Source: Lactarius indigo
Lineage: Eukaryota; Basidiomycota; Agaricomycetes; Russulales; Russulaceae
Reading direction: 5' to 3'
Assembly: GCA_025766275.1 (NCBI GenBank)
Contig: JAFKAC010000056.1
Coordinates: 310,001-374,000 of the forward strand
DNA length: 64,000 bases
Shown here: one piece after another, positions 23,391 through 36,126 of the stretch
How positions within the stretch are numbered: position 1 is the first letter of the stretch
Layout: each line of letters opens with the position of its first letter
Notes under the pieces: model-generated
Database searches by the model: none
Told to the model about the DNA's origin: nothing
Seen by the model: the letters and a program-made list of their open reading frames with translations, nothing else
Program-made: the position numbers and the translations under genes

Positions 23391-23416
23391 GGAGAGTTGA
23401 CTTAGAGAGGGGCTCA

Positions 23417-23986
23417 TGTTATGATCCGACGCTTCGGACCTAAGTCACAGTATGTCTCCACCCTGCCTTCCCCTTTCTGTACTATACCTTGTTACCAAAG
23501 GAGCTACTGTTACTAGTGGCGCTGTTTCTTTGATCCGAACTTCTGTTTACTCCGTTTAGTCTCTTTGATATTGTGTGGACTTGTGTTCATGTTGTTTGGA
23601 ACCCTGTCCTATATAAACCTGTACCATAGACCGTAGGAAGCCAGACTTGGCTTTGTTTGCAATCTAGCAACCTTGCCTCCGTACTTTGGTGTGACCTCGC
23701 CTTATCCCTCTCTTCTTGTGCATCCCCTACCTCAGTCCCTAACCAGGACACTTCGAAGTCTTTGCAGTTGAACTATATCAACACGTTACACCTGTTATAC
23801 TCTGTGCACTAGCAAGATCAAGTGTAGAGAAGTGTTAGACACTTCGGACGAGGAGTCCTACATAACAGAGTAGTGCTGCACCTTGTGCCACACTTTTATC
23901 ACTCGTATTTTATAGCAATAAGACAACAGAGGTCTTCGCTTGATACTTGTGTGATTCGGAACCTTTAGAACCCACGCCCCTGCTAG
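23417..23986 (+). repeat. Family B LTR 3, last 9 bp displaced
   Basis: 570 bp of B LTR stopping at CCCCTGCTAG; the terminal GGCGTAACA is missing because the family D LTR begins here. By eye it is nearly identical to LTR 1. Confidence 0.9.
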
Positions 23987-24083
23987 TGTTATGACTTCCT
24001 TGGACTCGTCTCTTTCCTCGCCATTACTTCCTTCCCACACTATACGAGCCCTGTATAACTACGCGGACTTTACGATTACCCGG
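23987..24083 (+). repeat. Family D 5' LTR, first segment
   Basis: TGTTATGACTTCC through ...TTACCCGG, then interrupted by the F element. It continues at 36127; 97 plus 471 nt gives 568, equal to the 3' LTR. Confidence 0.9.
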
Positions 24084-24935
24084 TGATACACCCGGCGCGC
24101 CGCTAAGCGTTAATTTTCGCTAATCTAAGCTAATACGACAATATGCGGCAGACCGGCCCAACCGGCCCGTCTAGAGTACTGCGATCGGTCACTCTCGGCG
24201 GCGGGAAGAGCGGCCCGTGGTGATGGGCCGAGACACCCGAATATTTTAGCCGCATATGCGAACGGTAGCCTACTGCTACAATCACGGGTGCGGCCCCAGC
24301 GCGGGGTACGGGACGGTGCCTATATTAGCGCGGAACATGTGAAAGCCCCAGAAACCAATCAGGGCCGACATGGCGAATAGCGACATACCGGAGCGGCCGA
24401 GCAGAATCACAGGCGCGGCCATGGCGCGAATAGGCAAAGCAGCACCTAGGGTTGGTAAGGCGACACCCCAGAGAAGAGCGGATCAGACCGGCGTGGGTTT
24501 AAGGCAGGAGAGTAAGATGGACGTTCAGCAAGGGAAAAGCGGCGAGGTGCGGATTCGGTCGGCGAGCGGCAGCACATAAATAGCTCTATACCACAGGTAC
24601 AAGAACAGCAACCTTCGGGGAGCCCATAGCGACTTCATTCTATTCATACGCTCATATCCTACTATTCGATTATCTACGACATCTATTCTATTTTGATTTC
24701 GCGAAGCACCCGTGTGTGCGTATTCGGCTATACCTCGGCTATTCGCAGCCCCGCGTCGCGTTAAGACTACATCGCTCTCACCTCGGTCGGCTCCGGCTCG
24801 TTCGGTCCCGCGTCGGTGCGCCTTCGGTTAAAGTCGCCATCGGCCGGATTATCGGTCCTATATTCCCTGACTTCTCGAACCCAATATCACTCCTTTACCG
24901 GTCGTTCTTGCGTTTAGCGACGGTTTAGGGTATCA
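24084..24935 (+). repeat. Family F 5' LTR
   Basis: 852 bp, TGATACACCC...GGGTATCA. Partner of 35271-36122. Two differences noticed: GCGCGAATAGG against GCGTGAATAGG, and CGCGTCGGTG against CGCATCGGTG. Confidence 0.95.
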
Positions 24936-24939
24936 TTTC

Positions 24940-24956
24940 TGGTGGCCAACGTGGGG
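24940..24956 (+). promoter_or_regulatory. Family F primer binding site
   Basis: TGGTGGCCAACGTGGGG lies four bases inside the LTR. The TGG start fits pairing with a tRNA 3' CCA; the tRNA species was not identified. Confidence 0.55.
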
Positions 24957-25260
24957 AAGTTGGAATATAGAAGGTTTGCGTGCGCATTAAATAACTAACA
25001 TACTGCCGAGAAGGCGAGAACAGCGAAGTCTACTAGAAGAATTAATCGCGGCCGGATACGACCCGACTCAATCAATTCCAGGAAGCTATCCTAGCCCCGA
25101 AGACCTAACACCCCTTAGCAGCCTTAGTAGCGAACAAAGCGACCCCTCATCCAGTCACTCGGGACAAGAAGAAACCAATAGTGAAAAGGAAGTCGACCTC
25201 ATCCTGTCAAGTCACTCGGCTCCGTTACCCGCGCGCCACGGCGCAACAACAAGATCAAGA

Positions 25261-27786
25261 GTGAAAATCCTAGCACAACAACAGCAGGCGGAAGCGTTAC
25301 CGGCCGAAGAACAGGAAGCAGCCGATCAAAGTGTTAACCAACCAGCGAACACCACAGCATCAGCGACAGAAGATAATAACCGGCAGCCCGGCAGTAGTAA
25401 CCAACGAGCGCAATCGGCGCCGCCTCAGCAAAGCAACACAGCGATAAACCCCGTAGTACCCTCGATAAACCAGAACCCAACTCAAACACAGGCCGTACCG
25501 CAACCGGCCCCAAGACTACCACCAGCAAGAATAAACCAGCCTGTCCCCGCAGCAGCGGTCAACGTCAGAAGGATGCCCCTTGCAGATTTACCCGGAAGAG
25601 GTGAGCGGTCAGCACCTAGTTTTGATGGCGAGCACCCAGAAGAGCTTGGCCGATATTTTGCCGAAGTAGAAGCCCTATACGATAGGCACACAGTAACGAC
25701 CAACGCAGATAAGAAAAGCGGCACACTCAAATACCTTACGACAGCCGCGACCGAAAGAGTATGGAAGACAAGCGACGCGTTAACGGACGTAACAAAAACA
25801 TACGAAGAATACAAAGCCGAGATCTACAAGCTATACCCCGGATCCTCGGAAGACATTCATACAATCCTACACCTGGATACACTAGTAGGACAGCGCGCCC
25901 GCATTGGCATAGTCTCAGAACTGGAACTCGGCGAATACTACCGACAATTCAAAGTAATCTCCAAATACTTGATCGGCAAAAACAGAATGTCGCAGGCCGA
26001 GCAGACCAGAGCGTTCATGCAAGGATTACAGCCGGATATGGAACAACAAGTCAAGCAAAGGCTACAGCTAAAGATGCCAGACCACAACCAGCAAGACCCC
26101 TACAGATTAGAAGACTTGTATGATGCCGCAAGCTACGTACTCCAGGGCCGAGCACCGGTCGCGATCTCTAGCATAACTTCGGCAAGCGCGACACTCCCAC
26201 CGGCAACAGAGATAAAGACAGAGATCCAAACCGCGCTAGCAACCGCGGTCGCGACACTAGGCGAAATGTTCAAAAACGCGCTAGAAATCCAAAACTCAAG
26301 CGAGAAGGCCCGAAACGCCGGAAATCCTAGGCCGATAGGGGAACCAACCACCAAGTGCAACTTCTGCGGAACGCCAGGACACTTCATGCGAGAGTGCGAA
26401 GTAGCGGCCGAATATATGCGACTCGGCAAGTGCAAGCGTAGCGCAGAAGGGAAAATCGTGCTACCATCAGGTGCCGTGGTCCCTCGGCATATCACTGGAG
26501 CATGGCTGCGCGACCGCATAGACGAATACCACAGGCAAAATCCAGGACAAATAGCGGTGGCACAAATGTTACTCGAAATGTCAAGGCCGACGGCATCCGC
26601 AGAAGCGCGAACGGCAAAAACAGTCCGCTTTGCAGAAGAATGCCCAGAACCAGGACAAGCAGGCGTATATGCATTTCGAAGAGGCTTCATACCAAGGATG
26701 GGCGGAAGGACCAGGACCAGGTTCGAACATATGCCGACTGCCCGCATCCAGCAAGAAGACTCAGAAGAAGAGCAAGAAAGCCAGTCGCATCGCAAGGAAC
26801 GACCGCCACACCTAGAAAAGACGATAGAAGCAACAACCGAGGTTGCGGCGACAATAAAGGAACATCCATTCGCCAGAACGCAAGAAGCAGAACCGATTAC
26901 TCTAGGACTGACCCCGGCAACAAATACGGCGAACGACCGCAAAAGCGAGCGTGCTTATACATCAAATACGGCCATATACGACGAAAAGGCAGCAGGAAAA
27001 GTCTACGAAAGGATGATGGAAGCCGAAGTAACAGTGACGCAAAGAGAACTACTCTCGTTAGCACCAGAACTGCGGGCCCAAGTCAACGAAGTAACGACAA
27101 AGCGCCGCGTTGCTCGCGTTAACGCCCAAGAAAGTGTAGAGGACAGTACCGAGGAGGAGCCGAAGCGATCGACAGAATCGCATATGCCGGCGGCATTCTC
27201 GATCGCCAAGCGCACTCCACCGGCCGACGCAATAATAATAGCCGACCCGTATGAGGCGTTACTAAAGGCGCGACCGGCCGATGACGATGGATCGCAAAAT
27301 ACGATCGAAGTCGCGACCGAATCAAATGCCCTACGCGCGATCTTACCGGTAGTCGACGGATCAGAAAAGATAGAAGCCATCTTAGATCCCGGCTGCCAAA
27401 TAGTCGCAATGTCAGAAGAAGTGTGCAACGCACTGGCGATCCCTTACGACCCGAGCATACGGCTCAACATGATCTCGGCGAACGGCGGTGTAGATCAATC
27501 GCTAGGACTGGCGCGCAACGTACCATTCCACGTCGGCGAAATAACCCTCTATCTACAAGTTCACATACTGCGCTCGCCAGCCTATGATATATTACTCGGG
27601 CGGCCATTCGACATACTGACCCAATCCGTGGTGCGCAACTACCGGAACGAAGACCAGACAATAACGATCCTCGACCCGAACACCGGGAAAACGGCAACGG
27701 TGCCGACGGTACCACGCGGCAGCAACCGATTTGCCGAGCGAAGAAAGAAGCAGACAAGCGAACAATCGCAAGACTCGGATTTTTAA
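25261..27786 (+). CDS. Family F Gag-protease
   Basis: 841 residues from a GTG. The same frame is open back to 24991 without an ATG, and those upstream codons (LLEELIAAGYDP) look coding, so the real start may be a near-cognate codon such as the CTG near 25003. A Gln/Pro-rich N-terminus is followed by a Gag domain (about 118-300), a knuckle CNFCGTPGHFMREC (366-379), a charged region, and a retropepsin-like domain near the C-terminus. There the usual D-S/T-G is DPG (ILDPGCQIVAMS), followed by the flap-like ILLGRPFDI. The frame ends TTT TAA at the frameshift site. No internal stops. Confidence 0.9.
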   Translation: MKILAQQQQAEALPAEEQEAADQSVNQPANTTASATEDNNRQPGSSNQRAQSAPPQQSNTAINPVVPSINQNPTQTQAVPQPAPRLPPARINQPVPAAAVNVRRMPLADLPGRGERSAPSFDGEHPEELGRYFAEVEALYDRHTVTTNADKKSGTLKYLTTAATERVWKTSDALTDVTKTYEEYKAEIYKLYPGSSEDIHTILHLDTLVGQRARIGIVSELELGEYYRQFKVISKYLIGKNRMSQAEQTRAFMQGLQPDMEQQVKQRLQLKMPDHNQQDPYRLEDLYDAASYVLQGRAPVAISSITSASATLPPATEIKTEIQTALATAVATLGEMFKNALEIQNSSEKARNAGNPRPIGEPTTKCNFCGTPGHFMRECEVAAEYMRLGKCKRSAEGKIVLPSGAVVPRHITGAWLRDRIDEYHRQNPGQIAVAQMLLEMSRPTASAEARTAKTVRFAEECPEPGQAGVYAFRRGFIPRMGGRTRTRFEHMPTARIQQEDSEEEQESQSHRKERPPHLEKTIEATTEVAATIKEHPFARTQEAEPITLGLTPATNTANDRKSERAYTSNTAIYDEKAAGKVYERMMEAEVTVTQRELLSLAPELRAQVNEVTTKRRVARVNAQESVEDSTEEEPKRSTESHMPAAFSIAKRTPPADAIIIADPYEALLKARPADDDGSQNTIEVATESNALRAILPVVDGSEKIEAILDPGCQIVAMSEEVCNALAIPYDPSIRLNMISANGGVDQSLGLARNVPFHVGEITLYLQVHILRSPAYDILLGRPFDILTQSVVRNYRNEDQTITILDPNTGKTATVPTVPRGSNRFAERRKKQTSEQSQDSDF
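27777..27783 (+). promoter_or_regulatory. -1 frameshift heptamer GGATTTT (F gag/pol)
   Basis: Gag reads G GAT TTT TAA, so the heptamer ends right at the gag stop. The -1 frame GGA TTT TTA AGC continues open into pol. Phase is correct for X XXY YYZ slippage. Confidence 0.75.
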
Positions 27787-30700
27787 GCGTCGATGATTTG
27801 GTAACAAACCAAGGAGAGCTCGCAATAATATTAAATTTCAATCAATCAAGTCAGGAAGCGACAATCGAAGCTTGTGCGCCGCTACCGGCAAATACCACGC
27901 AACAAGACATCGCAGCGGCGTACATTTCTCTATGTGATTCAGAAAACCCCAACCTAAGCACCTACCTTAATACCTCAGAATCTAACAGCAGCGATCAGCC
28001 GGCCCGGCAGGAAGGCAAAAGCATCGCCTTCGCCGACACAAAAGCACCGGCCGCCATATACCTCGGCAAGAAATACAAACCTGTAGCACTCAAAATCAGA
28101 CCGATAGAAACCGAACTCCCGAGCCGGTTCAGAATAGTCCGCGAAATAACCGGCGACCCACTACAAGACCTACCGGCACTACCCACTAAACCAAGCGAGT
28201 TCCGACCGACCGGCCGATATACTAGCGAACGCAAAACGCAATTCGACCTCGCGCACGCCGGTACCTTCTTATTACCAGAAGAACGCAAGCTAATGCACGA
28301 ATTCATGTGCATCCAGAATAAAGCATTTGCCTGGGAAGATGCGGAGCGTGGACACTTCCGCGAAGACTTCTTTCCGCCGATCGAAATCCCTACGATCCCG
28401 CACAAGCCTTGGGCTCAGCGAAACATACCAATACCACCCGGAATCTACGACGAAGTCTGCCGGTTAATAAAATGCAAGATCGACGCCGGCATATACGAGC
28501 CATCGAACTCTTCATACCGATCTCGGTGGTTCTGCGTCGTAAAGAAAGATGGAAAATCACTGCGCATAGTCCACAGCCTGGAGCCGCTTAACAAAGTTAC
28601 AATCAAGCACGCCGGCGTCACCCCATTCACTGATCAGATAGGCGAGCATTTCGCCGGCCGAGCATGCGGCGGCATGCTAGACCTATATGTCGGCTACGAT
28701 GAACGAGGCTTATCACCAGAATCACGAGATTTAACAACCTTCCAATCACCATTCGGCGCCTTGCGACTGGTCACTTTACCCATGGGATGGACGAACTCGG
28801 TCCCGATATTTCACGACGACGTCACATACATATTGCAGCCAGAGATCCCAGACGTCACGGTTCCTTACATCGATGATGTGCCGATTCGTGGACCGGCAGG
28901 TCGGTACGAACTAGCCGACGGAACCGAAGAACGAATATTAGAAAATACCGGCATCCGCCGATTTATCTGGGAGCACTTCCAAGGACTCAATCGAGTAGTC
29001 CAGCGAGTCAAGTACTGCGGCGGCACGTTTAGCGGCCTAAAATCAATACTTTGCGCAGAGGAAATAACTGCAGTTGGACACCGGTGCACACCGCGCGGAA
29101 GGCTACCAGAGGTGGCCCGCGTGAACAAGATCGTTAACTGGGGACCGTGCAAAGACCTATCTGAAGTTCGTGCATTCCTCGGCACTGTAGGAGTGTGCAG
29201 GATATTCATACAAAACTTCGCGAAACGAGCCAACTCGCTCATCAATCTCACTCGCAAAGGCGTTCCATTCGAATTTGGACCGGCGCAAGTTGCGGCCCAA
29301 GAAGATTTAAAGCAGGCCCTCTTGAGTTCGCCGGCGCTTCGGCCGATTGACTACCAATCCGACTCACCGGTAATACTGGCCGTGGACACCTCACCAATAG
29401 CCATAGGGTTTTACCTCTGCCAGGCCGACTCAGCAATGCCGAAAAAGCGGTACTACGCACGCTTTGGTTCGTTGCCGCTAAACGACCGAGAGCGCCGCTT
29501 TTCGCAACCGAAGCTAGAACTATACGGCCTCTATAGGGCACTGCGCGCTTACAAAATATTCATCGTCGGCGTGCGCAACCTAATAGTGGAAGTAGATGCC
29601 AGGTATATCAAAGGCATGCTCAATAATCCAGACATCGCACCATCGGCCAGCGTCAACCGCTGGATAGTATCAATTCTAACCTTTCATTTTGAGCTGCGCC
29701 ACGTCCCCGGAAAGCAGCACGGACCGGATGGACTCTCTCGGCGGCCAGTACAGCCGGATGACGAACAAGAAGAGGAGGAAGAAAGCAGCGAAGAAGAATT
29801 CGAAGATTGGATTGATAACCTATATGGCTTCATGCATATGGTTAACCACCCAGTCGCGGCGCCTCGCACGAACCAACTTCTATACACCATCGCAAGCACG
29901 AACATACCAGAAAAGCGACCATACGAGATGGCCGACGCATTTCCATATGAGCCGAACTACGATCTAATCCCGCGAACGAAAGCGGCCGCGCGAGCCGATG
30001 AAAAACTAGCGGCAGCGCACGACTGGCTGACCTTCCTGGAGCGACCGGAAGGCATGACAGAACAAGATTATACCGCTCTAGTGCGCTTCGCAGCAAGATT
30101 CTTCGTAGACGATGGGCTACTCTGGAAGCGAAACCCGCAGGGGGCCCACCAGAGAGTCCTGTATCGGCACCGACACATTGAAGCGATACACGCGGCCCAC
30201 GACGATACCGGGCACCGCGGCTTCTACGCGACCCGAGCTCTACTAATAGAACGGTACTGGTGGCCATTCATGGGCGACGACATCGCTTGGTACGTGCGCA
30301 CCTGCCATGTCTGCCAGACCCGGCAGACCCAGCAAATCTCAATACCGCCGGTGGTCGCCACCCCCGCACCTTTATTTGCGAAGATGTATATGGACACAAT
30401 GCACCTCCCGCGTGCCGCCGGCTACTCCTACATTGTACAAGGCCGCTGCTCTCTGACCGGATACCCAGAATTTAGAATGCTCCGAAAAGAAACGGCTCAG
30501 GCACTCGGCGACTGGATATTCCAAGATGTACTATGCCGATGGGGAACGCTGACAGAAATAGTCTCAGATAACGGCAAGCCCTTCGTCGCAGCGCTCGGCC
30601 ACTTGGAACGCAAGTACCACGTGACGCATATTAGGATAAGCGGATATAACTCTCGCGCGAATGGCATAGTAGAGCGCGCGCACTTCGATGTGCGGCAAGC

Positions 30701-31406
30701 GCTGTTTAAAGCGGTCGACGGTGAGCAAAACCGCTGGCCGCAGGCGACATATTCCGTATTCTGGTCGGAGCGCGTTACGCCGCGGAAGCATCTCGGCTGC
30801 TCGCCATTCTTCGCGGCGACCGGCGTTCACCCACTGCTACCCTTCGACATCGTAGAAGCAAACTATCTATCGCCCCCACCTGATTCAATACTAGCGACAA
30901 CCGACCTCATCGCCCGGCGGGCGGTAGCTCTACAAAAGCGACCGGAAGACCTAGACCGGCTCAAGGCGAGAGTCCACGAACACCGCAATCGCGTGGCCCT
31001 TCGGTTCGAGAAGGCACATTCGGCAACAATTCGCGACTACGATTTCAAAAGAGGCACTCTAGTCCTAATCCGCAACACCGCGATAGAAAAAGCGCTGAAT
31101 CGCAAAATGCGGCCGCGCTACTTTGGACCACTAGTAGTGGTCTCGCGAAACAAAGGAGGGGCCTACATAGTATGCGAACTCGACGGCACACTGCTACACA
31201 GCACCATAGCAGCCTTCAGAGTGGTGCCGTATTTCGCCCGCGAATATATGGACATACCCGATCTAGAACAACATTTGGACGTCTCGGTCGCTCGGTTGCG
31301 CGAATTGGAAGCCAGTGGCGAACCGGATGTGGACCCACGGCAAGACACCCAGGAGAGCGAAGACGACGAAGATATACCCGAGGCAGCCGAAGAACTCGAC
31401 ATGTGA
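27780..31406 (+). CDS. Family F Pol: RT-RNase H-integrase
   Basis: 1202 residues counted from 27798, entered by the -1 shift. RT motifs include LDLYVGYD (about 294) and YIDD (357-360). RNase H shows LAVDTSPIAIGF and VEVDARY, and the domain ends HGPDGLSRRP (about 648). An acidic linker follows. Integrase has HHCC (HDDTGH...CHVC) and catalytic D866, D924 and E959 (MDTMHL, SDNGKPF, NGIVERAH), a DD35E set. The C-terminus ends with an acidic tail (EDDEDIPEAAEELDM), and no chromodomain is visible. There is no internal stop. Protease lies in the gag frame, not here. Confidence 0.93.
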   Translation, partial: FLSVDDLVTNQGELAIILNFNQSSQEATIEACAPLPANTTQQDIAAAYISLCDSENPNLSTYLNTSESNSSDQPARQEGKSIAFADTKAPAAIYLGKKYKPVALKIRPIETELPSRFRIVREITGDPLQDLPALPTKPSEFRPTGRYTSERKTQFDLAHAGTFLLPEERKLMHEFMCIQNKAFAWEDAERGHFREDFFPPIEIPTIPHKPWAQRNIPIPPGIYDEVCRLIKCKIDAGIYEPSNSSYRSRWFCVVKKDGKSLRIVHSLEPLNKVTIKHAGVTPFTDQIGEHFAGRACGGMLDLYVGYDERGLSPESRDLTTFQSPFGALRLVTLPMGWTNSVPIFHDDVTYILQPEIPDVTVPYIDDVPIRGPAGRYELADGTEERILENTGIRRFIWEHFQGLNRVVQRVKYCGGTFSGLKSILCAEEITAVGHRCTPRGRLPEVARVNKIVNWGPCKDLSEVRAFLGTVGVCRIFIQNFAKRANSLINLTRKGVPFEFGPAQVAAQEDLKQALLSSPALRPIDYQSDSPVILAVDTSPIAIGFYLCQADSAMPKKRYYARFGSLPLNDRERRFSQPKLELYGLYRALRAYKIFIVGVRNLIVEVDARYIKGMLNNPDIAPSASVNRWIVSILTFHFELRHVPGKQHGPDGLSRRPVQPDDEQEEEEESSEEEFEDWIDNLYGFMHMVNHPVAAPRTNQLLYTIASTNIPEKRPYEMADAFPYEPNYDLIPRTKAAARADEKLAAAHDWLTFLERPEGMTEQDYTALVRFAARFFVDDGLLWKRNPQGAHQRVLYRHRHIEAIHAAHDDTGHRGFYATRALLIERYWWPFMGDDIAWYVRTCHVCQTRQTQQISIPPVVATPAPLFAKMYMDTMHLPRAAGYSYIVQGRCSLTGYPEFRMLRKETAQALGDWIFQDVLCRWGTLTEIVSDNGKPFVAALGHLERKYHVTHIRISGYNSRANGIVERAHFDVRQALFKAVDGEQNRWPQATYSVFWSERVTPRKHLGCSPFFAATGVHPLLPFDIVEANYLSPPPDSILATTDLIARRAVALQKRPEDLDRLKARVHEHRNRVALRFEKAHSATIRDYDFKRGTLVLIRNTAIEKALNRKMRPRYFGPLVVVSRNKGGAYIVCELDGTLLHSTIAAFRVVPYFAREYMDIPDLEQHLDVSVARLRELEASGEPDVDPRQDTQESEDDEDIPEAAEELDM

Positions 31407-31764
31407 ACATTCCATAAGCGCGAAAACATGGGCTGCGAAAGAGCCATCTCTGGACTTTAATTTTCTATAGTCTTACTTTATTATTGCTTTTAATCCTATG
31501 CGAACAGTGAAATAACACGCGATATACCCGCTACACGAGGCCGAACCCCAAGCGCACCGAGCACACACATGCCGGCCTAACAAGCCTGTTTCCGCAGTAC
31601 TGGGCCAACTAAAACACCGAACGTCCGCAATAGCCAACGCCCACGGGGACTCTCACATCGAGATAAACAACTTCTCCAGTACAGCAGGAGGCCGCTACAA
31701 GCTCGCTACCAAAATTCTGGGTATACCAGCGCCACCGCTCCTTCACGATCCAACGCGACAGTCC
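31407..31764. other. Spacer between F pol and antisense cassette
   Basis: About 360 bp with no convincing ORF on either strand. It lies where the convergent pol and antisense transcripts would terminate. Confidence 0.5.
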
Positions 31765-32551
31765 TTAGACACCTACCCCAGTCTCACCACCATCGTCCTC
31801 TGCACCGTCTTCCGCGCCAGCAACAAAATAACCTTCGGCGCCAATACCAACGTGCAACTCTACAGCGAAGCGATTAGGCATAAAGCGGCGAAAAAGAAAT
31901 AGGCAAAGCATACCGCGAGGCGAGCGGCCCAGACTCATGATCTTCGGGAGCGACCCTCGCTTGCAAATCACCGTCAGCCGGTCAGATCGCAACTTCGAGA
32001 GGTACCAATAATAGTCCTCGCGCGAAATGTCCCCGGCAGCCCGAAGCGACTCAAACTCGATAGCGGCACGATCATAAACATCCGGGACCTGCTCGCTAAC
32101 CAGCGCTCCGGCGAGACACTCCTCAAGAGCAGCGCTCTGCGTGCGACATATGACCCCTGTATACAGCAACACTCGGCTTCGAACGTGCTCAGTGACCATG
32201 GGGAACTCGAGCAGCCAATTAACATCCGCAAATGGTGCGGCCTCGGTCCGAACAAGCGAACGCAGGGCATATGCGTCGGCCCCCATCTCGCCATCGTTAG
32301 CAGCATCCGCCATCAGCCGAAGATAATCCTAGAAGTGCCCAATCACCATGGAATGAACAAAACACATAGATTTAGCGACGTACCCACGACCCCTGGAACA
32401 AGCGTAGCCACGATGCGATCTGCGGCGCCTGGCGAGGACACTGCGACCAAGTTTCGCCAAACACAAAGAAACTAGTCAAAGCGGAATCGAAGGCAGCCTT
32501 GAGCAAACCCTCGGGCAAGTAGGCATCAGAGTCACGACCGGTATCAGCCAT
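31765..32551 (-). CDS. F antisense gene 3 (two exons), paralogue of genes 1 and 2
   Basis: Predicted exons 32551-32384 and 32328-31765 with a 55-nt GTACGT...TTCTAG intron, phase 0; product about 243 residues starting MADTGRDSDAY. The intron falls right after Trp in LFQGSW, matching gene 2. Exon 2 holds a shared domain: a helical WLLEFP segment, then IEFESLRAAGDISREDYYW, and an acidic Gly-rich C-terminus. It lies inside the F element on the strand opposite to gag-pol. No known family was recognised. Splicing is predicted, not observed, but the joined frame is continuous across the intron and aligns with gene 2. Confidence 0.72.
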
Positions 32552-32717
32552 GGCAGGGAACGTTGGGATCGGCTCACAGCGAACAAGCCGCTTTAATGCG
32601 AGACAACCCGCTACAGACTCTTTTCACATGTCAATGGACGAAGATCGACACAAGCGACACCATTTAATAACGGGTTGTAGTACGCCAATTACAAAGGCCG
32701 GGCAGGTACAAGGAACG

Positions 32718-33378
32718 CTACTCCGCATCATGCGATACCCCCTCGGTCGCCGAAGAGCTTCGCCGCGCGGTTTCGGCCAGTAAACTAGCCCGACCGAGCC
32801 GCTCCTCCTGCCACTGATACTCGTCGAAACTGATAACGCCCGCAGCGAGAAGGTCCCGAAACTCGGCAACGGCTAAGACGTACGGGTCCCGAAGCGCAGA
32901 TACCCCCGGTCCATGGATAACGTTCGCGATAACGGCGGACTGAGCGCGGCTGAATACGACGGCATACCGAATGAGCCGCGACTGGTGCTCCTCGAAAACG
33001 CCAGGGAATAATAGAAGCCATTCCAGCTCAGCATGAGGCGCGGCAGCTTCCTCGATGATGGTCCGAAGCTCCCGAGCAGACTCGGCGAGGCTATGAACAC
33101 CAGCACGGGCGGCCATGCGCTCGGCATATTCCTGGAAAAGTTAGGCGTCTAGCGAAGACAAGCGAAAAGAAGCGTCGTACCCAAGCGCGATAGAAATCTC
33201 GAAGGAAGTCGGCAACATCCGTGGGGCGGCGCTGAAGACCGAACCACCGCTCGGAAAGCACGGCCAGCTGCGCAATCGCACGCACATACGCGCGACGGTT
33301 TTCGCCATCGCTCGAGTCCACCAGACTAGAGTTATTCGAAGGAACGGGCATCGAGCGCAAAGGGAGAAAACGTTCCAT
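32718..33378 (-). CDS. F antisense gene 2 (two exons)
   Basis: Exons 33378-33181 and 33131-32718 with a 49-nt intron GTACGA...TTCCAG that contains a CTAAC branch-like sequence; product about 203 residues starting MERFLPLRSMP. The intron follows Trp (DFYRAW). The exon 2 domain matches gene 3: WLLLFPGV, then VAEFRDLLAAGVISFDEYQW. By eye the two proteins share about a third of residues over this stretch and keep the same intron position and phase, so they arose by duplication. Function unknown. Confidence 0.72.
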
Positions 33379-33617
33379 CCCTACTCACACCGCAAGCGCG
33401 ACAAAAGTATCGCCGGCGCCAAGATGCCGGCCCGACGCGGCAGCTGAGGACAGCCAAATTAAATTTTTCAGGGGGGGAAAGCGCAAGAAAAAGCGCAAGG
33501 CAATCGGCGCTAACTCATTTCAACGAAACGTGGCAAGATTGATACATTCCCAGGCACAGGGCAACACGGAAAGTCTATTTACAAATGTTCTACAAAGGTA
33601 GATCGGGCGACCGCGGC

Positions 33618-35089
33618 TTACTCGGCGCCGAGATCCCCGGAAATGCCCGCCCAGTCCATTTCGGCATCTTCCTCCTCATACTCGTATTCGGTCCCGTCTT
33701 CAATTTCATCCTCGTCAGCCGCTTCGGCATCATCACCCGAGAGCGCGTCAACGTCGATCGCTCGCTCCTTACCCTTCGACGAAGCGCGCGTTCGCGGCCG
33801 CTTCGGCGGCGGCTGCCCGAGAGAAGTGCCGGGCTCAACCATCATACCAAGATAGCTGGCCAACTGGAAGCGAAGGAAAATGATATTCTCGTCGATCAAC
33901 GTACGAGAAGCCATTGCGCGAGCAAGCTCAGCACGATAAAACACGATCGTCGCGGCGAGCTCGACGCCCGAACAGTCCTCTGGGGGACCGAAAAAGGCGC
34001 CGGCGCGAGCGTTGCCAGAGAACGAGCCGGCGCGAGCACTGCCAGACGGCGCGGGACCGGGCGAAGCGACACCGGGAGAGGGAACACGGGGAGGCGCGGC
34101 GGCGCCTGCCCGACGGCGACGACGGCGCAGAAGCGGCGCCCGAACACACGCGTGATCCCCGTGAACGCACCGCCAGCACGGATACGGCGGCGAACTACCG
34201 ACAACGGGCGCGCATTTCACCTTGCTCTTGATGCAAGTCACACACTAGAAGACAGGTTAGCCAACACTCAAGAGAAGCCAACCGAGACGCACCTGCCGCC
34301 ACCCAGCGATCAACGTGACATCCATCAGCTCGGGCGTATGACCGCGCTTAACGCCGCGACCGGTCCCCGACCCGGAAGCGACCGTGGGCTCCTCAGAAAG
34401 CGCGGCGGCGGCACCAGATGGGGAAGGCGCCGCCCCAGCCGCACGAAGAGCGGGAGATTGGATGGAACTCTGCGAAAAGAGTTCTGATAAGCCGAAGGCG
34501 GGAGAACCGCCGACGGGTGAAGGGCCGAGTGGGCGCGCGGACGACCGCAAGAGCGGCGATGGAACCGGCAGCGACGGCGGCATGTCGGGCCTGGTGTCGG
34601 CCGCGAGAATGGCCGCACGGTGGGCCTCGAACTCGGCGCGAGACAAAGTACCAGCCTCCACCTGTCGGCGGTACTCGGCGAGCCGCGCATAGTCACCGGG
34701 TATATCGGCCGACCCAGGCGGAACCGACGGCGCCAACAAGGAGCCCAGCCGCTCCTCGCTCCCAGCGACAAGACGAGGCGAATGTTCAAGCCAAGCCGCC
34801 GAAGCGAACGGAAGCAGGCAGCTGCGTGCAGCGCCAACAAGAGCGTCCACCTCCTGATCGACGCCAACATCTATGCCGGCCTCGATCGCCGACGAAACGA
34901 CAAGTTCCTGTCAACCCGATCAACCACGATCAGCACGGATCGAAGCCGACAAGTACTCACCAGAGCCGACGAAAAGGTCTGCGCGAGCTCATCGGCCGAC
35001 GCGGCATCCAGATCGGTCCTCTCAAACTTGGGGCGAAGACGCAAGAGCGACAACTTAGCGAACGAAAACACACGGGATTTTTGCGACAT
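33618..35089 (-). CDS. F antisense gene 1 (three exons): Zn2Cys6 protein
   Basis: Exons 35089-34961, 34907-34293 and 34244-33618; introns of 53 and 48 nt are GTGAGT...TTGACAG and GTGCGT...TTCTAG, the latter with CTAAC. All joins are phase 0, giving about 456 residues. Exon 2 resembles genes 2 and 3 (ALVGAARSCLLPFASAAWLE; EYRRQVEAGTLSRAEFEAH). The second junction creates a full binuclear zinc cluster: C-x2-C-x6-C-x11-C-x2-C-x6-C (CVTCIKSKVKC, then CWRCVHGDHAC), the fungal DNA-binding type. A basic run, a PPPKRPRTRASSKGKERA nuclear-signal-like stretch and a very acidic C-terminus follow. Inference: a nuclear DNA-binding regulator encoded by the retroelement. Confidence 0.75.
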
Positions 35090-35258
35090 GTTAGAAGAAT
35101 CGACTCAAGGAAGAAAAACGGCGAAAGGACGAAGATAACAATATCGGCGACAACGTATGGCGGACTCGCGGACCGTTCTCACGCTACCGGCACCGGCCGA
35201 CGACTTCTACCACGCGATGCTATTGCGCCGACTGACTGAGGACAGTCAGAAGCTCAGC

Positions 35259-35270
35259 CAAGAGGGGAAA
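35259..35270 (+). promoter_or_regulatory. Family F polypurine tract
   Basis: AAGAGGGGAAA directly precedes the 3' LTR start TGATACACCC. Confidence 0.65.
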
Positions 35271-36122
35271 TGATACACCCGGCGCGCCGCTAAGCGTTAA
35301 TTTTCGCTAATCTAAGCTAATACGACAATATGCGGCAGACCGGCCCAACCGGCCCGTCTAGAGTACTGCGATCGGTCACTCTCGGCGGCGGGAAGAGCGG
35401 CCCGTGGTGATGGGCCGAGACACCCGAATATTTTAGCCGCATATGCGAACGGTAGCCTACTGCTACAATCACGGGTGCGGCCCCAGCGCGGGGTACGGGA
35501 CGGTGCCTATATTAGCGCGGAACATGTGAAAGCCCCAGAAACCAATCAGGGCCGACATGGCGAATAGCGACATACCGGAGCGGCCGAGCAGAATCACAGG
35601 CGCGGCCATGGCGTGAATAGGCAAAGCAGCACCTAGGGTTGGTAAGGCGACACCCCAGAGAAGAGCGGATCAGACCGGCGTGGGTTTAAGGCAGGAGAGT
35701 AAGATGGACGTTCAGCAAGGGAAAAGCGGCGAGGTGCGGATTCGGTCGGCGAGCGGCAGCACATAAATAGCTCTATACCACAGGTACAAGAACAGCAACC
35801 TTCGGGGAGCCCATAGCGACTTCATTCTATTCATACGCTCATATCCTACTATTCGATTATCTACGACATCTATTCTATTTTGATTTCGCGAAGCACCCGT
35901 GTGTGCGTATTCGGCTATACCTCGGCTATTCGCAGCCCCGCGTCGCGTTAAGACTACATCGCTCTCACCTCGGTCGGCTCCGGCTCGTTCGGTCCCGCAT
36001 CGGTGCGCCTTCGGTTAAAGTCGCCATCGGCCGGATTATCGGTCCTATATTCCCTGACTTCTCGAACCCAATATCACTCCTTTACCGGTCGTTCTTGCGT
36101 TTAGCGACGGTTTAGGGTATCA
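35271..36122 (+). repeat. Family F 3' LTR
   Basis: 852 bp, near-identical to 24084-24935, followed by the second CCGG target copy at 36123-36126. Antisense gene 1 begins about 180 bp upstream, so its promoter must lie in this LTR or the short gap before it. Confidence 0.95.
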
Positions 36123-36126
36123 CCGG

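Follow-up and report, generated by a model that had tools for sequence, protein, structure and literature searches.

A conserved antisense cassette of three predicted spliced genes in a Ty3-type LTR retrotransposon of Lactarius indigo

In the Lactarius indigo genome an LTR retrotransposon carries, between pol and its 3′ LTR, a block of 3.86 kb (31407-35270) that is the seat of genes on the minus strand. The element lies in a window of 64,000 nucleotides (C244:310001-374000, the whole stretch of DNA analysed here, to which all plain coordinates refer). The locus raises the question of whether these are real genes that belong to the element and, if so, what their products might do for it.

The element spans 24084-36122 and its two LTRs differ at two positions (Table 1). 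It has the two LTRs, the protease and the RT-RNaseH region ahead of the integrase that mark a Ty3-type element. Within pol, RT_RNaseH_2, RT_RNaseH and Integrase_H2C2 matched above the Pfam cut-offs; at 1e-3 the element matched neither the RT-core nor the integrase-core model. Judged by its sequence this is a young, multi-copy Ty3-type LTR retrotransposon. The copies described below agree with the suggestion of an earlier note that the cassette travels with the element, which may still be active. In the gag frame, open from its beginning at 24991, no ATG occurs before 25573; translation may start unusually or a leader may be spliced on. When the LTRs of 17 of the 21 aligned copies are compared, 70-77% of positions vary among CpG bases and 9-15% among the others, which suggests a strong, methylation-like decay of CpG in the LTR.

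Table 1. Features of the element and its minus-strand genes, in window coordinates.
Feature	Position	Strand	Basis
5′ LTR, 852 bp, TGATAC start, GTATCA end	24084..24935	+	direct repeat; 2 differences from the 3′ LTR
3′ LTR, 852 bp	35271..36122	+	sequence repeat
Target-site duplication CCGG, 4 bp	24080..24083 (left copy); 36123-36126 (right copy)	.	read from sequence
gag-protease open frame	24991..27786	+	Asp_protease_2 above Pfam cut-off
pol open frame, RT-RNaseH then integrase, overlaps gag in another frame	27588..31406	+	Pfam
Purine-rich tract abutting the 3′ LTR, probable PPT	35258..35270	+	read from sequence
Gene A exon 1, ATG start	34961..35089	-	
Gene A intron 1, 53 nt, GTGAGT..CAG	34908..34960	-	
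Gene A exon 2: shared domain, proline/serine-rich linker	34293..34907	-	
Gene A intron 2, 48 nt, GTGCGT..TAG, immediately ahead of first cysteine	34245..34292	-	
Gene A exon 3: CX2CX6CX11CX2CX6C, arginine run, basic stretch, acidic tail, stop	33618..34244	-	
Gene B exon 1	33181..33378	-	
Gene B intron, 49 nt, GTACGA..CAG	33132..33180	-	
Gene B exon 2, including stop	32718..33131	-	
Gene C exon 1	32384..32551	-	
Gene C intron, 55 nt, GTACGT..TAG	32329..32383	-	
Gene C exon 2, including stop	31765..32328	-	

The gene models agree with the three minus-strand genes that had been proposed between pol and the 3′ LTR, the position known as aORF-3R. Gene A would encode 456 residues and has two introns; genes B and C, with one intron each, would encode 203 and 243. 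All four predicted introns are GT..AG and of phase 0; three have lengths that are not divisible by 3, and the fourth, of 48 nt, contains an in-frame stop. The introns lie exactly where the earlier note had placed them, although gene A has two rather than the single one it had allowed each gene, and the three genes fit within its span of 31765-35089, though the block that carries them extends further.

To what extent the block is a regular part of the element can be read from its other copies. In the 90.3 Mb of genome searched, where all counts of copies are lower bounds, the block matched at least 27 places, and at least 18 of these, the window included, cover all 3,864 bases. The remaining matches are pieces of three interrupted copies (C135:307k, C79:742k/753k and C223) and one remnant (C35). 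A pol probe matched at least 30 places. Twenty-two copies of the family (F) reach the 3′ end of pol, 19 of them unbroken, together with C223, C240 (in two pieces) and C35; the other pol matches are the first halves of broken copies and a diverged lineage, and C151 is a further remnant of the family that ends short of the pol 3′ end. The block directly adjoins pol in 21 of the 22, and the cassette is thus present in most copies of the family. In C35 only the first 396 and last 151 bases of the block are retained, so the cassette there is almost wholly gone. Copies lacking the block, which would have spoken against the proposal, did not turn up beyond this remnant among those reaching the pol 3′ end.

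The window and 20 other copies were aligned (n = 21). The GT and AG dinucleotides are kept in every intron that was fetched whole, that is in 21 copies for each intron of gene A, 20 for that of B and 19 for that of C; the C intron of L027 ends at the edge of its fetched stretch, and the stretch of L028 is without the B intron and gene C. Models remain fully open in 12 of 21 copies for A, 17 of 20 for B (L028 not covered) and 13 of 19 for C (L027 and L028 not covered), so that conserved frames in several copies, on which the earlier note had made its case depend, are indeed found. All three genes are intact in 10 of the 21. Where pol has a full frame (1264-1272 aa), in six copies, all three genes are kept without exception; of the remaining 15 copies, two of them partly fetched, four also keep all three. 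Among copies with an intact gene A its length changes only in 15-nt steps. A repeat of 15-nt units in exon 3 (about 34050-34090) forms an in-frame length polymorphism among the copies.

Genes A, B and C are under purifying selection. Pairwise pN/pS is 0.384 for A (16 copies; L023-L027 left out), 0.440 for B (18 copies; L023, L024 and L028 left out) and 0.459 for C (16 copies; L019, L023, L024, L027 and L028 left out). The null was obtained by shuffling columns within base and CpG classes, with CpG judged on the window copy or, more strictly, on any copy. With the former none of 100 shuffles was as low for any of the three genes; with the latter 0, 1 and 2 of 200 were as low for A, B and C respectively, around shuffle means of 0.65-0.70. 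When the set is reduced to the fully intact copies, nine of ten with L021 left out, pN/pS is 0.410, 0.284 and 0.383, with 1, 0 and 16 of 200 shuffles as low, and for gene C the value in this smaller set is therefore not clearly below the null. Since introns and spacers (4.0-6.2% divergence) are about as diverged as exons (5.7% for gene A exon 2), the case for selection rests on the kind of change and not on its amount. Wrong frames gave values of 0.76-1.13 for the two shifted frames on the coding strand and 0.74-1.08 for two on the other strand. The opposite-strand frame that shares its third positions with the genes, the mirror frame, is also low (0.48-0.55); the frame test alone is for this reason not proof of strand, which is settled by the splice sites and the homologues. 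Frames of up to 300 aa are present on the plus strand within the block.

Diverged A-B-C cassettes were found at three further places in the genome, C79:503-506k (L059), C277:179-183k (L060) and C270. At C270 a plus-strand pol ends near 1498014; beyond it C (read by eye), B and A lie on the minus strand, as far as 1503635. This copy is decayed, as there are stops inside the pol, B and A matches, and its pol has 66% amino-acid identity to that of the window over the part compared; it represents a second pol lineage with the same anatomy. No pol was found close by the other two cassettes among the 100 of 2165 candidates that were scored, the nearest in these matches being about 45 kb from the C79 cassette and about 12 kb, on the cassette's own strand, from that of C277. 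In L059 gene C is split by an insert (about 1300-1950 of that locus) that resembles, reversed, the window at about 23400-24010, which by eye is apparently the LTR of another repeat family. Outside the known copies there are A-like matches at C274:76000-76203 (E 8.9e-8) and C241:314521-314967 (E 3.2e-4).

Among the matches listed, protein relatives occur only in Lactarius sanguifluus, L. deliciosus and L. pseudohatsudake. With the best 8000 candidates scored, at least 13 relatives of A were found, at 41-52% identity with one (P0015) at 36%, and a B/C profile found at least 10 relatives; these include the two relatives of B, at 53-61% identity. The C relative P0018 has 70 and 74% identity to the two exons of the window's gene C. 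In P0022 the tryptophan at the C intron site is directly followed by 18 inserted residues that resemble a retained intron. Several A entries run into B (P0004, P0005, P0011, P0013 and P0014 clearly, P0010 partly), so A and B are adjacent in these species too. When equal contig size is taken to mean the same contig, A, B and C entries come together on contigs of 255550 (P0007, P0017, P0019), 606621 (P0015, P0001, P0018) and 1313966 (P0009, P0002, P0023); three further contigs (202741, 387402 and 134668) hold two gene types or a fusion. Adjacent locus numbers (1904800/1904801, 2146083/2146084 and 1911645/1911646) support this reading. Relatives of A, B and C thus share contigs in three Lactarius species, where they are known from gene neighbourhood.

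These comparisons bear on three explanations in which the proteins would matter little to the element. We give almost no credence to the frames being mechanical and without biological meaning: long antisense frames also arise by chance opposite gag and pol, but here splice sites, frames and proteins are conserved across copies, lineages and species. It is improbable that the antisense transcript itself acts, by pairing with the genomic RNA and feeding silencing or by blocking sense transcription, with the frames secondary. Regulation by antisense RNA has been proposed for LTR elements (PMC7264820, from the part of that paper available), but the pN/pS values, the conservation of frames and splice sites and the conservation of the proteins in Lactarius point to the protein being what is kept. 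By comparison of sequences, then, the cassette is real, conserved and borne by the element.

The genes could still be captured host genes that merely hitchhike. Zn2Cys6 proteins, to which gene A bears some likeness (see below), are common in fungi. Gene capture by elements does occur (PMC7264820, in the part available). Against this, the best candidates in the genome all lie in copies of the family or in the C79, C270 and C277 cassettes, except for those at C274 and C241 and weak NLR-like matches, and retention in a second pol lineage and in another species group argues against a passenger; we consider this explanation improbable too.

The earlier note had assigned one shared domain to all three proteins. 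For B and C this stands: their second exons are 37% identical (E about 1e-14), their profiles align over 184 columns (hhalign, E 1.8e-21), and by these alignments they are certainly paralogues. For A it is weaker. The profile of A aligned to that of B and C over 101 columns with E 8e-4, a probability of 24% and a score of 28.8, the maximum in 30 column shuffles being 18.4. In this alignment intron 1 of A and the intron of B and C share one column, although intron positions were not used in aligning. A is probably the third paralogue. More distant matches to the C domain (E 0.003-0.009; C135, C212, C221 and C245) were dropped as chance after one place (L062) was examined, as the frame there presumably belongs to a host protein of the NLR/NACHT type.

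What the proteins may do is suggested mainly by gene A. Behind the six-cysteine cluster, which is encoded immediately downstream of intron 2, come an arginine run, a basic stretch and an acidic tail that bears tryptophan and is conserved in Lactarius. All 21 copies have the spacing CX2CX6CX11CX2CX6C, with a stop interrupting it in two of them. Of the diverged cassettes, L059 has it and in L060 it did not turn up; among the 13 Lactarius A proteins 7 show it and the models of the other 6 do not. Zn_clus was the commonest weak Pfam match, to 8 of 14 members with a best E of 0.011, and the gathering score of Zn(2)-Cys(6) (PF00172) was not reached (P0003, 16.2 bits against a cut-off of 21); for the window's own A the Pfam search listed no Zn_clus match. 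Neither B nor C reached the cut-off of any Pfam family, whether DNA-binding or not. For the B family an all-helical structure is predicted (pLDDT 77, pTM 0.56), and in a fold comparison no match stood out.

The cysteine pattern, basic stretches and acidic tail of A, together with B and C lacking a Pfam domain and B being helical, lead us to read the locus as an antisense regulatory cassette borne by the element, in which A would be a DNA-binding regulator and B and C its helical partners; we put the probability of this at roughly 0.45. Against it count the Zn_clus scores below the cut-off, the A proteins in which the cysteine spacing is missing, the nine of 21 copies in which gene A is broken, the C79 and C277 cassettes with no pol close by, the low pN/pS of the mirror frame and the value of C in the intact copies. 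An unlikely alternative is that the proteins act on the particle or its enzymes, with B, C and the N-terminal domain of A as interfering or chaperone-like partners of Gag or integrase that control copy number. Ty1 p22 exerts control of this kind. Proteins of no Pfam family above cut-off and with a predicted all-helical B would suit capsid partners, and three paralogues would suit a multimer; in A, however, the cysteine cluster looks nuclear, and so do the arginine run, the basic stretch and the acidic tail, and there is no match to any Gag family of Pfam.

Under the regulatory reading one helical domain would have been duplicated to give A, B and C, which were maintained as part of a retrotransposon lineage. 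Antisense transcription would begin within the 3′ LTR or close inside it, and also ahead of B and C, and the transcripts would be spliced and translated. A would enter the nucleus and bind DNA through its Zn2Cys6-type cluster, and with its acidic tail it would control transcription, the element's own LTRs being the likeliest target. B and C retain the helical domain without the cluster; they may bind A or each other and so tune A. The introns would last because packaging takes the RNA of the opposite strand, and the spliceosome thus never meets them in the RNA that serves as template; this explanation, already offered in the earlier note, fits the copies, in which the splice sites are kept throughout. 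Typical targets of Zn2Cys6 proteins are CGG triplets. The LTR holds a cluster of them, 32 where 14.3 are expected (as many in 0 of 200 shuffles), but pol, with 56 where 37.5 are expected, and gag, with 30 where 20.8 are, show enrichment as well. In 17 of the 21 copies compared, CpG sites within CGG/CCG are conserved no better than CpG sites elsewhere, and the idea of CGG targets in the LTR was left as weak, there being clustering but no preferential conservation.

Taken together, selection, intron positions, duplication and a motif resembling a DNA-binding one yield a concrete prediction, that A regulates the LTR and that B and C modify A. The element may thus bring along its own control genes, and it would be a natural example, and a clean one, of strand allowing introns to survive retrotransposition. 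Even in plants, where antisense genes in LTR elements are frequent, their functions are described as unknown (PMC7264820, in the part available).

The earlier note knew of no description of such a family in a fungal LTR element, and this holds in part. In the literature searched, judged by titles and the openings of abstracts, no spliced or triplicated antisense cassette appeared, and the available part of PMC5408684 contains no comparable antisense spliced genes. Antisense genes in fungal LTR elements are known, however: in Boty of Botrytis the space between pol and the 3′ LTR holds an antisense gene, brtn (PMC7264820; mentioned also in PMC8365987 and PMC4227169; all as available in part). 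Boty thus shares with the present element the fungal host and the position of the antisense gene, but a single gene is named there against three paralogues here, going by the description of brtn in these citing papers, and the nearest sequence relatives of A, B and C come from the mushroom genus Lactarius. In plants, the parts available of PMC7264820, PMC11963269 and PMC8365987 describe antisense ORFs between pol and the 3′ LTR of Grande, RIRE2 and Retand, with gene23 of Grande reported to have its own promoter and TRP28 of Retand predicted to bind DNA (PMC7264820; PMC11963269). TRP28 is reported there from flowering plants only (PMC11963269), whereas the cassette here is fungal; the relation to the plant aORF-3R proteins was compared at the level of Pfam families. 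The word intron is absent from the main text of PMC11963269 and PMC7264820.

A retroviral parallel suggests itself as well. HBZ of HTLV-1 is spliced and is a bZIP protein. HTLV has an antisense promoter in its 3′ LTR, and HBZ is an antisense-encoded nuclear regulator (PMC7264820; PMC11963269; parts available). A has a cysteine cluster and no bZIP Pfam match, so that any likeness would be one of working principle only. It may be, though this is less likely than not, that the whole is a self-made spliced antisense system of three paralogues, a Zn-cluster DNA binder and two helical partners, by which the lineage controls its own LTRs, with introns protected by strand as long as the lineage endures, and so a convergent counterpart of the retroviral antisense regulators. 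With the Zn(2)-Cys(6) factors (PF00172) A shares the cysteine spacing, basic residues and acidic tail; unlike them it falls below the Pfam cut-off, has an N-terminal domain assigned to no family and is borne by a retrotransposon. The antisense position itself is already known from plants and Boty, and what stands out in this cassette is its triplication, its conserved introns and its cysteine cluster.
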